In this document: piece after piece, positions 9,711 to 20,384 of the stretch | Layout: each line of letters begins with the position of its first letter | Numbering within the stretch: position 1 is the stretch's first letter | DNA from: Gemmatimonadota bacterium | GTDB lineage: Bacteria > Gemmatimonadota > Gemmatimonadetes > Gemmatimonadales > JACORV01 | DNA: 40,079 nt | NCBI GenBank assembly: GCA_016209905.1 | Contig: JACQVG010000018.1 | Span: 1 to 40,079 of the forward strand | Direction: 5' to 3' | Program-made: the position numbers and the translations under genes | Notes under the pieces: generated by a model | Databases searched by the model: none | Told to the model about the DNA's origin: nothing | Seen by the model: the letters and a program-made list of their open reading frames with translations, nothing else

Positions 9711-9727
9711 ACCGGCCTGAAGGAATC

Positions 9728-9771
9728 TTCACCCTCGATTCACGGTTGTCCCCCACCGCCCCGTCTACGTT
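9728..9771 (+). promoter_or_regulatory. Direct-repeat regulatory box plus -10 for the cytochrome c-nosZ operon
   Basis: TTCACCC-TCGA-TTCACGG (11-bp period) from 9728; TACGTT -10-like hexamer at 9766 (38 bp after repeat start). Confidence 0.6.
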
Positions 9772-14946: not shown

Positions 14947-15825
14947 GTGACGACCGTCGCCGAGCCGGCGCCGCTCAGCTTCGCCCGGCCTAGGGCGATC
15001 CGGCCGCTCGGCCGCCAGCTGGCGGCGCTCGCCCGCTACGAGCTCGCCGTGGAGATGCGGGGCAGAATCCTGCCGGTCTTCGCCGTCGGCTTCGCGCTCG
15101 CGGCGCTGGCGGTCGCGCTCGTGGGTATGTCGGCGGGCGGCACGATCCTCGTGCAGGGATTCGGCCGGACGGCGGTCAGCCTGCTCCAACTCTCCCTCTG
15201 GGTCGTCCCGCTGGTCGGGCTGGCGGTGAGCGCTCTCGCCGCAGCCGACGGCTACGACATGGAGACGCTGGCCGCGCAGCCCATCGGCCGGGGCACCCTG
15301 GTCGTGGGCCGCGCGCTCGGGCGCTTCGTCGCGCTGGGCGCGGCGGTGGCGGTCGGTTACGGCGTGGCGGGCGTCGTGATCGCGGGGGCGGCCGGGACGG
15401 GCGACGCGCTGCGCTACCTCGGCCTGGTGGGCGTGGCGGTCGCGCTGGCGGCAGCGAGCACCAGCCTCGGCACGCTGGCGGGCGTCGCTGCGCGCACCCG
15501 CACGCGAGCGCTGGCGCTCGCCGTCGGACTGTGGTTCGTCCTCGCGCTGGGGTTCGACCTGGCGGCCATCGCCGCGCTCGGCGTTCTGCCGCGCGCCCAG
15601 CTGACCTGGTGCCTGTCGGGGCTCCTCCTCCTCGACCCGGTGGATACGGCGCGCGCCATCGGCGTGGGTCTCCTCGGTGCGGAGGCGATCGCCGGGCCGA
15701 TGGGCGCGGCGCTGCGGCGTGTCCTCGGTCCTTGGGGTCTCTTGGCGTTGTGGGTGGGGCTCGCGGCGTGGACGGCGCTGCCGCTCGCCCTCGCGGCCCG
15801 CCTCTTCGCGCGCCGTGACCTCTAG
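14947..15825 (+). CDS. nosY: ABC permease NosY-like
   Basis: Polytopic protein after nosF: LARYELAVEMRGRILPVFAVGFALAALAVALVGM...; GTG start. Confidence 0.85.
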   Translation: MTTVAEPAPLSFARPRAIRPLGRQLAALARYELAVEMRGRILPVFAVGFALAALAVALVGMSAGGTILVQGFGRTAVSLLQLSLWVVPLVGLAVSALAAADGYDMETLAAQPIGRGTLVVGRALGRFVALGAAVAVGYGVAGVVIAGAAGTGDALRYLGLVGVAVALAAASTSLGTLAGVAARTRTRALALAVGLWFVLALGFDLAAIAALGVLPRAQLTWCLSGLLLLDPVDTARAIGVGLLGAEAIAGPMGAALRRVLGPWGLLALWVGLAAWTALPLALAARLFARRDL

Positions 15826-15840
15826 GCCAGGGAGGCTTCG

Positions 15841-15874
15841 CTCGGCTTTGGCGCCCCCGTCGCGGGGAGCCGAG
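15841..15874 (+). terminator. Hairpin after nosY
   Basis: CTCGGCT ... CCCC-gtcgc-GGGG-AGCCGAG nested stem; no T-tract. Confidence 0.4.
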
Positions 15875-15943
15875 TATCGTGACTTGACGTCGCCGGGGGT
15901 GGAACGGGAATGGAGCGGGGCCCCGGGACAAGGAGTGGGCGCG

Positions 15944-16864
15944 ATGACGTGGAACCCCATCATCGTCGGCGTGGACGGCTCGCAGGAGTCGGTGCGGGCG
16001 GCGGTCATCGGATGCGCGGTGGCGAAAGCGGCCGGCACGGACTGCCAGCTCGTCCACGCGGTGCCCGACTACTGGGGGGCGACCTGGATGCCCGAAGTCG
16101 CGGGCGACCCGGCGGAGTTGAACGAAGCGTTGAGAGGCCACGCCCGCACGCTGCTGGTGAGCGCGCTGGAGGGAAGCGTGCCGAGCCGGCTGCTGCGCAA
16201 CCTCGACGTCCGCGTCGGCCGGGCGCCGATCGTGCTGGCTCACGTGGCGGCCGAGCGTGGTGCCGGGCTGGTGGTGCTGGGCGGCAAGCACCACAAGGGC
16301 CTGGGCCGGCTGGGCAGCAGCACGCTGCAGCACATGGTGCGCACCTCCGACGTCCCGCTGCTCGCCACGGACGGCACCTCGGGAACCGTCGAGCGCGTGC
16401 TCGTAGCTGTGGACCTCTCGTACGCCGCCAGGCCTGCCATCGAGGCCGGTGAGCGGTTCGCCAAGCTGTTCGACGCGCAGCTTCGAGTCATGCACGCCGT
16501 CGAGCCGGTCCCGGTGATCCCGGGCTTCCCGCTGGACATCGGCGACGACGACTGTTACCGCAGCGTCGAGCGGCTCCTTGAGATGACGGTGTGGCCGCTC
16601 GTCGAAGCGCCGGGAGCGGAGAAAGTCGTGCGGCGGGGGCGGGCGGCCGCGGTCATCGTCAGCGAGGTGACCCAGTGGCGGGCGGACCTCGTGATCGTGG
16701 GCTCGCACGGGAAAGGGTGGGTGGACCGGCTGCTGATCGGCAGCACGTCGGAGCGGCTGCTCCACCTCCTGCCTACGCTCACGCTCGTCATCCCGGTCGC
16801 CAGGCCGAGCGATGCCGGCCCTCTGCCGGCGGTCGCGCCGCCGCCGGCCGGCACGGCGAGGTAG
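15944..16864 (+). CDS. Universal stress protein, two UspA domains
   Basis: NPIIVGVDGSQESVRAAV...; RVLVAVDLSYAARPAIEAGERFAKLFDAQLRVMHAVEPV; DLVIVGSHGKGWVDRLLIGSTSERLLH. Confidence 0.9.
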   Translation: MTWNPIIVGVDGSQESVRAAVIGCAVAKAAGTDCQLVHAVPDYWGATWMPEVAGDPAELNEALRGHARTLLVSALEGSVPSRLLRNLDVRVGRAPIVLAHVAAERGAGLVVLGGKHHKGLGRLGSSTLQHMVRTSDVPLLATDGTSGTVERVLVAVDLSYAARPAIEAGERFAKLFDAQLRVMHAVEPVPVIPGFPLDIGDDDCYRSVERLLEMTVWPLVEAPGAEKVVRRGRAAAVIVSEVTQWRADLVIVGSHGKGWVDRLLIGSTSERLLHLLPTLTLVIPVARPSDAGPLPAVAPPPAGTAR

Positions 16865-16938: not shown

Positions 16939-18207
16939 TTGCCTTCCCACCGCACCGCCGGAGAGCCGCTGACCTCCGACCCCGACACCTTCCGCATCCG
17001 GGAACGGTTCGAGCGGCTGCTCGCAGCCGGGATCTCCATCTCCTCCGAGCGCTCCCTGGACCGCGTGCTCCAGCAGGTCGTGGACTCCGCGCGCGCGGTC
17101 GTCGAGGCGCGCTACGCCGCCCTTGGCATCCTGGGCGAGGACGGCGCCACGCTGGTGCGCTTCGCCGCGTCGGGCCTGAGCGAGGCCGAGCGGGAACGAA
17201 TCGGCGCCTGGCCGCGCGGCCGCGGGCTGCTCGGGGCGGTGATCCGGGATCGGAAGCCGCTGCGCATCGCGGAGATCGGCGCCCATCCGGAAGCCTACGG
17301 CTTCCCCGCCCACCATCCCGCCATGCGCTCGTTCCTCGGCGTCCCCGTCGTCGGGCGCACGGGACCGGTCGGGAACCTGTACATGGGCGACAAGATCGGG
17401 GCGCGCGAGTTCAGCGCGGAGGACGAGTCCATCGCCGTCCTCCTGGCGGCCCAAGCGGCGGTCGCGGTGGAGAACGCCCGACTCTACGACGAGACGGCCC
17501 AGCTGCTGGGCAGGGTGCAGGCGATGCAGCGCCAGCGCGATCAGTTCTTCGCCATGATCAACCATGAACTGCGCAACGCGCTGACCGGTGTGTACGGATG
17601 GGCCGAGCGGCTGCTCCGCTCCCATTCGGGAAGGGCGGCCGCCCGCGCGGCGCGGGAGGTCTACGAAGGAGCGGAGAGGGCGGTCACGCTGATGAACAAC
17701 CTGCTCGACCTGAGCCGCCTGGACGCCGGGAAGGTGCAGGCGGTGTGGCGCCAGGCCGCGCTCCGCGACGTCGTCGAGCGCGCCCGGGCTCTCGTCCAGC
17801 CGGCCGCGGATGCCAAGCGGATCGCGCTGGAGGAGGAGTTCCCGGAGCCCTCGCCCCGCTGCCGCACCGACACCATGCGCTTCGAGCAGATCCTGGTGAA
17901 CCTGTTGAGCAACGCCATCCGCCACAGCCCGTCCGGCGAGACGGTCGCCGTCAGGGTCGAGACCACGGCGGACGAGATCCTGGTGCACGTCATTGATCGC
18001 GGGCCCGGCATCCCGCTCGAAGCGCAGGGCAAGATCTTCGAGCCCTACATCCGCGTGGACCCGGAGTCCGGCCTGGGCTCGGGCCTGGGCCTGCCCGTCT
18101 CGCGCCGCCTGGCGGAGCTGCTGGGCGGCCGGCTGAGCGTGCACAGCGCGCTGGGCCGCGGCGCGACGTTCACGCTGGCGGTTCCGAGCGCTCCGCCCGG
18201 CGAATGA
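16939..18207 (+). CDS. Soluble GAF-domain sensor histidine kinase (DevS/DosS-like GAF, HisKA-type core)
   Basis: GAF with AHPEAYGFPAHHPAMRSFLGVPVVGRTGPVGNLYMGDK; H-box FFAMINHELRNALTG; NLLSNAIRHSP; DRGPGIP; GSGLGLPVSRRLAELLGG. No TM segment visible. TTG start. Confidence 0.9.
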   Translation: MPSHRTAGEPLTSDPDTFRIRERFERLLAAGISISSERSLDRVLQQVVDSARAVVEARYAALGILGEDGATLVRFAASGLSEAERERIGAWPRGRGLLGAVIRDRKPLRIAEIGAHPEAYGFPAHHPAMRSFLGVPVVGRTGPVGNLYMGDKIGAREFSAEDESIAVLLAAQAAVAVENARLYDETAQLLGRVQAMQRQRDQFFAMINHELRNALTGVYGWAERLLRSHSGRAAARAAREVYEGAERAVTLMNNLLDLSRLDAGKVQAVWRQAALRDVVERARALVQPAADAKRIALEEEFPEPSPRCRTDTMRFEQILVNLLSNAIRHSPSGETVAVRVETTADEILVHVIDRGPGIPLEAQGKIFEPYIRVDPESGLGSGLGLPVSRRLAELLGGRLSVHSALGRGATFTLAVPSAPPGE

Positions 18208-18214
18208 ACCTTTC

Positions 18215-18258
18215 TTCACGCCGGGTTTAGCGGCGATTCAGCCGTCGCGAGGTATGGT
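18215..18258 (+). promoter_or_regulatory. Direct-repeat box plus -10 for the response regulator gene
   Basis: TTCACGC-CGGG-TTTAGCG-GCGA-TTCAGCC (11-bp period) from 18215; TATGGT at 18253 (38 bp after repeat start). Confidence 0.65.
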
Positions 18259-18264
18259 GCCCGA

Positions 18265-18936
18265 ATGAAGATCCTCGTCGTCGAAGACGATCGCAAAGTC
18301 GCCGGGTTCATCGAGCAGGGCCTCCGTGAGGAGGGCTACTCCGTGGACGTCGCCCCCGACGGCGACGAGGCGACGATGCTCGCCCACGTGTACGATTACG
18401 ACGTGATCGTTCTCGACGTGATGCTGCCGAAGAAAAGCGGACTGCACGTTGCGGCGGAGCTTCGGCGCGAGGGCCGGGGGACGCCGGTCCTCATGCTGAC
18501 CGCGCGGGACGCCACGGAGGACATCGTCCGCGGACTCGACGCCGGTGCCGACGACTACCTCACCAAGCCGTTCAAGTTCGATGAGCTGCTCGCGCGGGTG
18601 CGCGCCCTCGTGCGCCGCGGCGGCGCGACCCGGACGGAGCTGTTGACGTACGGGCCGATCGAGCTCGACCGGCTGAAGCACAAGGTCCGCGTCGGCGGGA
18701 GGGGGCTGGAGCTGTCTCCCAAGGAGTTTCACCTGCTGGAGCACTTCCTCCTGCGCCCGGAGGAGGTGGTGCGTCGCACCGAGCTGTTGGAGAAGGTGTG
18801 GGACATGCACTTCGACCCCGAGAGCAACGTCGTGGACGTGCACGTCGGGAATCTGCGGCGCAAGCTTCGGCAGGCCGCCCAGATGAGCCTGATCCACACC
18901 GTGCGCGGCGTCGGCTTCCGCCTCCAGAAACCCTAG
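18265..18936 (+). CDS. OmpR/PhoB-family response regulator
   Basis: MKILVVEDDRKVAGFIEQGLREEGYSVDVAPDG; DVIVLDVMLPKKSG; winged-helix LSPKEFHLLEHFLLRPEEVVRRTELLEKVWDMHFDPESNVVDVHVGNLRRKL...IHTVRGVGFRL. Confidence 0.95.
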   Translation: MKILVVEDDRKVAGFIEQGLREEGYSVDVAPDGDEATMLAHVYDYDVIVLDVMLPKKSGLHVAAELRREGRGTPVLMLTARDATEDIVRGLDAGADDYLTKPFKFDELLARVRALVRRGGATRTELLTYGPIELDRLKHKVRVGGRGLELSPKEFHLLEHFLLRPEEVVRRTELLEKVWDMHFDPESNVVDVHVGNLRRKLRQAAQMSLIHTVRGVGFRLQKP

Positions 18937-18953
18937 GCCTCGATGATGGGATC

Positions 18954-18997
18954 TTCACGCAACTTTCACGCTGCCTTCATCCGGCGCGGGCTAGGCT
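18954..18997 (+). promoter_or_regulatory. Direct-repeat box plus -10 in front of an apparently gene-less region
   Basis: TTCACGC-AACT-TTCACGC-TGCC-TTCATCC (11-bp period) from 18954; TAGGCT at 18992 (38 bp after repeat start). Confidence 0.65.
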
Positions 18998-19003
18998 CGC
19001 TGT

Positions 19004-19256
19004 GACCACCCGAATCGGTGGTCGGTGCGGGATCGCCCCTGAGGAGGGGCCGGCGCTCAAAACGCCGCCGACGGATCGGTTCGCTCGGAGTCACCGGCCG
19101 CACGTTCACTGGCTCGCGCCGGTACGAGAACACGAAACCCGGCGACAAACAGGCACTCGAGGAGCGGACGCCATCGGGTCAGGCACGACCCGACCAAAGT
19201 GATCGGTCGGAAGAAATGTCCTCCAGCCCCCGCGCTCCCCCGGAGAACGGGGGCTG
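19004..19256 (+). ncRNA. Candidate structured small RNA
   Basis: Predicted TSS about 19002-19005; hairpins GACCACC/GGTGGTC (19004-19023), GCCCCT/AGGGGC (19035-19050), CGGCG/CGCCG (19051-19067), CGGGTC/GACCCG (19175-19192), CCGACC/GGTCGG (19190-19210) and 3' stem CAGCCCCCG/CGGGGGCTG (19224-19256). Confidence 0.4.
19224..19256. terminator. Hairpin between the candidate sRNA and the dnaJ 3' end (possibly bidirectional)
   Basis: CAGCCCCCG-N15-CGGGGGCTG perfect 9-bp stem; minus-strand flank ATTTCTTCC, plus-strand flank ATCTCTTCC. Confidence 0.55.
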
Positions 19257-19271
19257 ATCTCTTCCAGCCTC

Positions 19272-20384
19272 CTAGTATCTCAGCCCCGTCGCGTCCGCGA
19301 ACTGCTTCAGGATGGCTTCCTGCTCGGCCGAGAGCTTGGTGGGAACCTCCAGGCTGACCTCCACCAACTGGTCGCCCCGCGCGCTGTTCTTCTCGATGCC
19401 CTGCCCCTTGATCCGGAACTTGCGACCGGGCTGGGTGCCGGCCGGAATCCGGAGCACGACGTGCTTGCCGTCGAGCGTGCGCACCTTGAGCTTCGTTCCG
19501 AGCATCGCCTGGGCGACGTTGATCGGCACCACGCAGTGCACGTCGAGTCCGTCGCGGTGGAAGAATCGGTCGGGCTCGACCTGGAAGGTGATCACGAGGT
19601 CGCCCGCTGCCGCGCCGCCCGTCCCGCGCAACCCCTGCTCCTTGAGGCGCAGCTTCGCGCCGGAATCGGCGCCGGCAGGCACCTCGATCATCAGGCGTTT
19701 CTCGAGCTTGACGTCGCCGACCCCGTGGCAGGTGCCGCACCGCCGTGACGCGACCCGGCCCTTGCCGCGGCAGGCGGGACACGGTCGCTTGACCGCGAAG
19801 CCTCCGTAACCGAACGAGACCTGCCCGCTCCCCTGGCACTCGGAGCAGGCCGTGAGCGTCGCGCCCGGCGCGGCCCCCGAGCCTCCGCAGGTCGGGCAGC
19901 CTTCCGTCACGGGCACAACCACCGGCACCTTGCCGCCGAGCGCCGCTACTCGGAACGGGAGGGTCACCACCGTCTCCACGCTCTCGCCCCGCTCGCGCCC
20001 GCCGCGCTTCGCCTCGCCGCCGAAGATGGAGGAGAACAGGTCGCCGATCCCGCCCAGACCAGCGTAATCCTTGAGGTCGAAGTCCTCGAACCGCGCACCC
20101 GCGCCGCCGCCGGCCGGCCGGCCCGGGGCGCTGCGCGCCCCGAAGCCGGTGAATCCGCCGTAGCGGCGGAGGCGGTCGTAGTGCTTGCGCTTTTCGTCGT
20201 CGGACAGGACGGCATACGCTTCGGTGATCTCCTTGAAGCGTTCGCCGGTCGTCCTGTCCCCCCCGCCGGGGCTGGCGTCGGGATGGTGCTTCTTCGCCAG
20301 TTTCCGGTAGGACCGCTTGATCTGGTCCTTCGTCGCCGATTCGGCGACGCCCAGTATCCGGTAGTAGTCCTTCTGCTGCGACAC
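19272..20384 (-). CDS. dnaJ: Chaperone DnaJ
   Basis: KDYYRILGVAESATKDQIKRSYRKLAKKHHPD; CxxCxG zinc repeats CPTCGGSG, CSECQGSG, CPACRGKG, CGTCHGVG. Confidence 0.95.
   Translation of the reverse strand: MSQQKDYYRILGVAESATKDQIKRSYRKLAKKHHPDASPGGGDRTTGERFKEITEAYAVLSDDEKRKHYDRLRRYGGFTGFGARSAPGRPAGGGAGARFEDFDLKDYAGLGGIGDLFSSIFGGEAKRGGRERGESVETVVTLPFRVAALGGKVPVVVPVTEGCPTCGGSGAAPGATLTACSECQGSGQVSFGYGGFAVKRPCPACRGKGRVASRRCGTCHGVGDVKLEKRLMIEVPAGADSGAKLRLKEQGLRGTGGAAAGDLVITFQVEPDRFFHRDGLDVHCVVPINVAQAMLGTKLKVRTLDGKHVVLRIPAGTQPGRKFRIKGQGIEKNSARGDQLVEVSLEVPTKLSAEQEAILKQFADATGLRY

Follow-up and report, generated by a model that had tools for sequence, protein, structure and literature searches.

A stretch of about 260 nt between a response regulator gene and dnaJ in a Gemmatimonadales bacterium probably encodes a small noncoding RNA, which would found a new Gemmatimonadales family and be run by a DosS-like gas-sensing two-component system. 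Genome comparison shows the RNA family, its fold, its conserved promoter and its co-occurrence with the regulator, and we regard it as nearly certain that family and fold are real. The RNA locus adjoins genes of N2O reduction (nos) within the same window, i.e. the whole analysed stretch of 40,079 nucleotides, and is present as a single copy in its own genome. The stop codon of the response regulator gene occupies 18934-18936 and the convergent dnaJ on the minus strand ends at 19272, so that no recognisable gene lies between them. Positions 18952-19266 hold three TTCAY boxes at 11-bp spacing, the -10 element TAGGCT and the structured RNA with a GC hairpin at its end.

A first-pass annotation of the window had proposed a structured sRNA under control of the adjacent regulator at 18954-19262. 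Upon direct reading all sequence elements named there were present. Homologues, covariation of the fold and the conserved promoter support the proposal, with the transcript itself as a prediction.

Homologues, fold and mode of action

DNA search of relatives gave two clear matches with 71-72% identity in genomes of another family. With one of them as query, two more full-length homologues and one partial homologue were obtained. A covariance model of five sequences revealed four additional full-length members, which constitute a second clade; diverged or compact members were retrieved with models built on the 5' part, either including or omitting the promoter. Altogether 17 Gemmatimonadales genomes carry the RNA (G000, G094, G044, G114, G117, G155, G154, G038, G153, G148, G076, G024, G135, G125, G134, G106 and G014), nine of them as near full-length homologues and the others in diverged or compact form. 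Identity of the homologues is about 71-74% overall, and they lie beside different genes. G134, G106 and G014 were assigned on weaker scores (48, 38 and 38 bits) together with inspection of promoter and terminator. Low-scoring matches of the R2 model were discarded by inspection, except G148 and G076, judged to be true members, and G058, judged a remnant; weak matches of the R3 model below about 38 bits were excluded from membership. Carrier counts are lower bounds, since only a small number of candidates is scored in each genome searched. A strict motif retrieved 8 stretches from a collection of 84,980 species. The named genomes are all Gemmatimonadales or Gemmatimonadota/Gemmatimonadetes metagenome-assembled genomes, and the distribution therefore seems confined to Gemmatimonadales/Gemmatimonadota. 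Plasmid and phage collections contained no match to the RNA. Neither the interval nor 13 homologue loci matched a family of Rfam 15 at gathering score; relaxed thresholds gave only sub-threshold matches, the best being twister-sister with 16.3 (34 required), and none is credible.

The elements of the RNA as found in the window are:

19004-19023, plus strand: P1, 5'-terminal hairpin GACCACC (19004-19010) / GGTGGTC (19017-19023); 7 of 8 pairs with two-sided compensatory change in 11 sequences
19024-19034, plus strand: J1, linker GGTGCGGGATC; TGCGGG conserved
19035-19050, plus strand: P2, hairpin GCCCC(TGAGGA)GGGGC, from the comparative alignment
19051-19067, plus strand: P3, hairpin CGGCG/CGCCG, from the comparative alignment
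19068-19210, plus strand: P4, closing helix around P5, P6 and P7, strands CCGAC/GTCGG (19068-19072 with 19206-19210) and GATC/GATC (19074-19077 with 19201-19204); interior absent or reduced in compact members
19079-19169, plus strand: P5, helix GTTCGCTC (19079-19086) / GAGCGGAC (19162-19169); 2 of 8 pairs changed on both sides
19090-19146, plus strand: P6, core GTCACCGG/CCGGCGAC with inner stem GTTC-ACTGGC/GCCGGT-GAAC; two-sided changes in helices 7 and 8
19174-19193, plus strand: P7, hairpin TCGGGTC/GACCCGA, helix 10 of the five-sequence fold
19211-19224, plus strand: J3, linker AAGAAATGTCCTCC, A-rich followed by C-rich, conserved directly ahead of the terminator
19224-19266, plus strand: intrinsic-terminator-like GC stem of 9 bp (19224-19232 / 19248-19256) with a T-containing tail, helix 11 of the five-sequence fold

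As a single sequence the interval folds only modestly better than its shuffles (z -2.2; 4 of 200 shuffles as good). Being only mildly unusual in this respect, the structure rests mainly on comparative evidence. RNAalifold assigned 84 pairs to the alignment of five sequences, 15 of them with two-sided compensatory change; 500 shuffles gave a mean of 5.8, none reaching 15, and slid partners at most 5. Within the 5' module of eleven sequences two-sided change affects 9 of 19 pairs, seven of these in P1; shuffles average 4.4 and never attain 9. The shuffles ignore relatedness; the slide control retains it and agrees. Compensatory change in homologues, put forward by the first-pass annotation as a test of its proposal, is thus present.

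P6 contains an internal loop, CCGCACG opposite ACGAAA, and its ACTGGC/GCCGGT stem (19108-19123) includes one G-U pair. The U-run of the terminator is weak in the window (GATCTCTTCC); homologues have clear, strong T-runs. By eye, the second clade shows the same layout (P1, linker, P2, P3, a long P4 around P5/P6/P7, linker, terminator), built from helices that differ in sequence. In compact members promoter, P1 and terminator are retained and the interior is partly or wholly missing; the compact member of G024 has a core similar to P6. The second-clade terminator, CCCCCGGTGCACGGGAGGGC[AG]CCGGGGGTTTT, is near-identical including its loop in five genomes (L060-L063, L235), with adjacent helices that diverge, and this loop may have a role beyond termination. 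A second compact copy is possible in G148 (L247, G148:C190:20157-20297), with the same promoter box, 5' hairpin and terminator. Apparent remnants were found at L049 (G100), with the 5' half replaced, at L050 (G110), with the terminator only, after a cupredoxin gene, and at L051 (G058), with the first hairpin only; the RNA locus seems to decay repeatedly.

Regarding its mode of action, we somewhat favour a trans-acting RNA that would base-pair with messages. J3, with the consensus AAATNTCCYYC, would be the most sRNA-like candidate seed, and its C-rich part before the terminator is suggestive of an anti-Shine-Dalgarno sequence. Hfq was detected in none of the 18 genomes examined, by searches whose controls did find Hfq; the RNA thus does not group with Hfq-dependent sRNAs, and any pairing would be Hfq-independent. 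A duplex scan over 21 window genes (84 tests) gave no clear signal, with a best z of about -3.6. A plain antisense regulator would be expected to be smaller and less elaborately folded, which counts against base-pairing. Alternatively, a structured RNA under the same control could act as a scaffold, protein-binding or ligand-binding RNA with no pairing to mRNA. We consider this unlikely, even though it would account for the eleven helices, for the conserved internal loop and multi-branched core, for the layout retained in the second clade, and for a putative seed that is not always free, since it lies base-paired within a hairpin in that clade. However, in G024, G076 and G106 the core is missing or cut down, though promoter, 5' hairpin and terminator are kept, so the elaborate core is not always needed. 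It is rather improbable that the conserved multi-branched core itself does the work, as a protein scaffold, ligand sensor or catalyst that the heme gas sensor turns on together with N2O reduction; this would represent a class of structured RNA without known counterpart.

Promoter, response regulator and sensor kinase

The regulatory elements in the window are:

9726-9771, plus strand: box with TACGTT ahead of cytochrome c (9801)-nosZ-nosDFY; third-best matrix match in the window
16939-18207, plus strand: sensor kinase GAF-HisKA-HATPase_c; GAF nearest to the DosT/DosS heme GAF-A, heme-ligand histidine H126 kept
18213-18258, plus strand: promoter of the response regulator gene, degenerate triple box TTCAC/TTTAG/TTCAG with TATGGT, 6 bp before the ATG; second-best matrix match in the window
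18265-18936, plus strand: OmpR/PhoB-type response regulator with a Trans_reg_C domain, presumed activator of the RNA
18954-18980, plus strand: triple box TTCAC-N6-TTCAC-N6-TTCAT, 11-bp direct repeats, third copy at the -35 position; kept in 11 of 11 aligned RNA promoters
18992-18997, plus strand: -10 element TAGGCT, constant in its distance to the boxes; TANNNT unchanged in all 11 homologues

The individual boxes of the RNA promoter (TTCAC 18954-18958, TTCAC 18965-18969, TTCAT 18976-18980) are spaced by exactly 11 bp, and the exact spacing of triple box and TANNNT is held in all 11 aligned promoters. Transcription is predicted to start at about 19004. A generic sigma-70 scan found no promoter with a -35 element, as expected if the third box replaces the -35. 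Without mismatch the triple box occurs once in the window, and with up to one mismatch once in the entire own genome. Pattern searches of whole genomes showed the box enriched over its reversed form, e.g. 24 versus 2 in G148 and 12 versus 0 in G117.

A box matrix was trained on the ten non-window RNA promoters only and both window strands were scanned. Highest scores were obtained for the RNA (35.5), the response regulator gene (18213; 13.2) and the nos operon (9726; 11.3), followed by 3.5 and -2.4. Restricted to informative positions, the matrix found 22 sites above threshold at 13 loci, including response regulator genes and one HSP20 gene, and none in the reversed sequence. Related repeats also precede orthologues of the regulator gene in other genomes. 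The box with TACGTT in front of cytochrome c-nosZ-nosDFY suggests that the nos operon is under the same regulator as the RNA. The tie to the adjacent two-component system, as drawn in the first-pass annotation, is strengthened by the boxes in homologue promoters and before the regulator gene and nos operon, and by co-occurrence. With conserved boxes, and the same box before the regulator gene, the RNA has the make-up of a two-component-controlled sRNA with its own promoter and a predicted regulator site.

The ATG of the regulator gene follows its -10 by only 6 bp (18253-18265), with equal spacing before the G094 and G038 orthologues; its message is therefore probably leaderless. At L111, L113, L123, L134, L143 and other loci, triple boxes were also seen ahead of a Pfam-confirmed HSP20 gene and ahead of genes that by eye resemble those for alanine dehydrogenase, a PHA regulator, an Rrf2 regulator and pyruvate phosphate dikinase. 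This gene set is reminiscent of a dormancy or hypoxia regulon.

An orthologue of the response regulator is present in 17 of 17 RNA-bearing genomes, and, with a cut-off of E 1e-75, in 80 of the order's 288 genomes; the G094 orthologue, which matches over residues 1-120 inside a longer frame, is below this cut-off. The naive hypergeometric probability of the co-occurrence is about 1e-10, a figure that overstates its strength, given the relatedness of the genomes and the single family that accounts for 16 of the 17 carriers. Eight cases have RNA and regulator gene close together on one contig: they adjoin in the window and are about 3-12 kb apart in G094, G038, G153, G155 (measured from the RNA to a part of the kinase gene), G125, G134 and G014. 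They are about 430 kb apart in the single-contig genome G154. With models of limited sensitivity no RNA match was obtained in many regulator-positive genomes, among them G001, a species of the same genus.

Control of the RNA by a box-binding OmpR-type regulator is very likely, and control by the adjacent regulator (18265-18936) is likely. A real RNA with boxes that serve another OmpR-family regulator is quite improbable. The box could be common to several OmpR-type regulators, and it stands ahead of varied genes in other genomes. Against this, the promoter of the adjacent regulator gene itself contains the box, both in the window and in orthologues, and no RNA carrier lacks this regulator.

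Among PDB entries the GAF domain of the kinase is closest to DosT/DosS heme GAF-A entries, with DevS entries named as such; the best is 2vzw (E 2e-38), which we take to be DosT. In the alignment the proximal heme ligand His149 of DosS corresponds to H126 of the kinase and Tyr171 to Y148 (DosS numbering via the published construct, GAMDP plus residues 63-210). At sequence level the kinase is thus a DosS/DosT-type heme sensor, a GAF domain with the proximal heme histidine; it would bind heme, and low O2 or NO should be the conditions that induce the RNA. In 10 of the 11 other RNA carriers searched, the search having preceded the five later carriers, the kinase has close homologues with 47-66% identity. 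The homologue in G155 is in two contig pieces, and G024 is the exception, with a generic kinase as best match. The regulator is not of DosR type, as it has an OmpR/PhoB-type Trans_reg_C domain. DosR is a response regulator of the NarL/LuxR class. Universal-stress genes are a recurrent association: the window has a tandem one at 15677-16864, upstream of the kinase, and in the second clade one is divergent from the RNA.

Genomic context and proposed circuit

Neighbours of the RNA vary between genomes. G094 and relatives have sulfocyanin upstream and an LTXXQ/Spy-like gene downstream, G117 has HSP20 upstream, the second clade has a universal-stress gene in divergent and a beta-CASP nuclease in convergent orientation, and G024 has thioredoxin nearby. 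Promoter, RNA and terminator are constant, which gives the RNA the appearance of a transcription unit of its own. A reading as 5' leader or attenuator of an adjacent gene would fit the LTXXQ (Spy-like) gene that comes after the RNA in G094, G114 and G117. However, the next gene is convergent in the window (dnaJ) and in G155 and G153 (beta-CASP), and a terminator-like hairpin closes the RNA in all full-length members. On gene orientation and terminators a cis-leader was rejected; this reading is mostly refuted and very improbable.

No more credible is a small protein gene in place of the RNA, starting with GTG at 19018 and open for 79 codons. This frame is also open in G094, G044 and G114, but has 13 codons in G117, is broken by indels in every pair compared, with a large part of the alignment out of frame, and finds no conserved counterpart in the second clade. 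Substitutions between the window and G094 are spread evenly over the codon positions (14/11/17). Peptide coding was rejected on the frame-breaking indels and the flat codon-position substitution. The interval is noncoding and terminator-like by comparison with homologues, and the absence of a conserved protein reading frame, on which the first-pass annotation had staked its proposal, holds. CsrB/RsmZ-type titrating RNAs are two-component-controlled structured RNAs, and P2 offers an AGGA in its loop, but sequestration of CsrA was rejected as practically without probability and is refuted for most carriers, because CsrA was found in only 1 of 18 genomes examined (not in the other 17) and GGA is mostly paired and not enriched over shuffles.

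A two-component-run sRNA tied to anaerobic metabolism is a kind already known, with DrrS and PaiI, and in denitrification sRNA-29, as examples. DrrS (MTS1338) is a DosR-regulated sRNA of Mycobacterium tuberculosis, which is destabilised by an unpaired 5' extension and stabilised by its 5'-terminal stem-loop (PMC5360333). By description, and not by sequence, the RNA reported here resembles DrrS in its tie to a DosS/DosT heme-GAF sensor system and in a predicted transcript that begins directly with a hairpin. It differs in having an OmpR/PhoB-type regulator, which DosR is not, and in its length of about 260 nt, as compared to about 108 nt for DrrS, which is cut from a longer precursor and has no poly-U terminator (PMC5360333). 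PaiI of Pseudomonas aeruginosa is an anaerobically induced sRNA under the two-component system NarXL and affects denitrification (PMC5703892); compared by description, it shares two-component control and the anaerobic link and differs in regulator class and host. In Paracoccus denitrificans, sRNA-29 alters denitrification and N2O emission via a GntR-type regulator (PMC6686037), a similar link to N2O without one to a DosS-like system. In the open-access literature we found no description of the RNA family, of such an RNA in this host group, or of a nos locus at which a DosS-like sensor is combined with a regulator of OmpR type and an RNA.

We propose that low O2 or NO would be sensed by the DosS-like kinase, leading to activation of the regulator. 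Once phosphorylated, the regulator would bind the three TTCAY boxes overlapping the -35 position and start transcription, raising its own gene, the nos operon and the RNA. The transcript would fold into the 5'-terminal hairpin, which would protect it, two further hairpins, a multi-branched domain with the conserved internal loop, a linker and the terminator. As an Hfq-independent trans-acting regulator it would pair with target messages through its unpaired linkers, above all the C-rich segment ahead of the terminator, and may thereby have a role in N2O respiration.

Gemmatimonadota are common in soil and consume N2O. Control of their nos genes is poorly known, and almost no regulatory RNAs are known from the Gemmatimonadales of soil, to which this RNA would add a new one. 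The proposed circuit is concrete: it links a DosS-like kinase to an OmpR-type regulator whose DNA box is defined, and its targets are three promoters, those of nos and the new RNA among them. As a new structured RNA family in genomes without detected Hfq, its mode of action would be informative either way.
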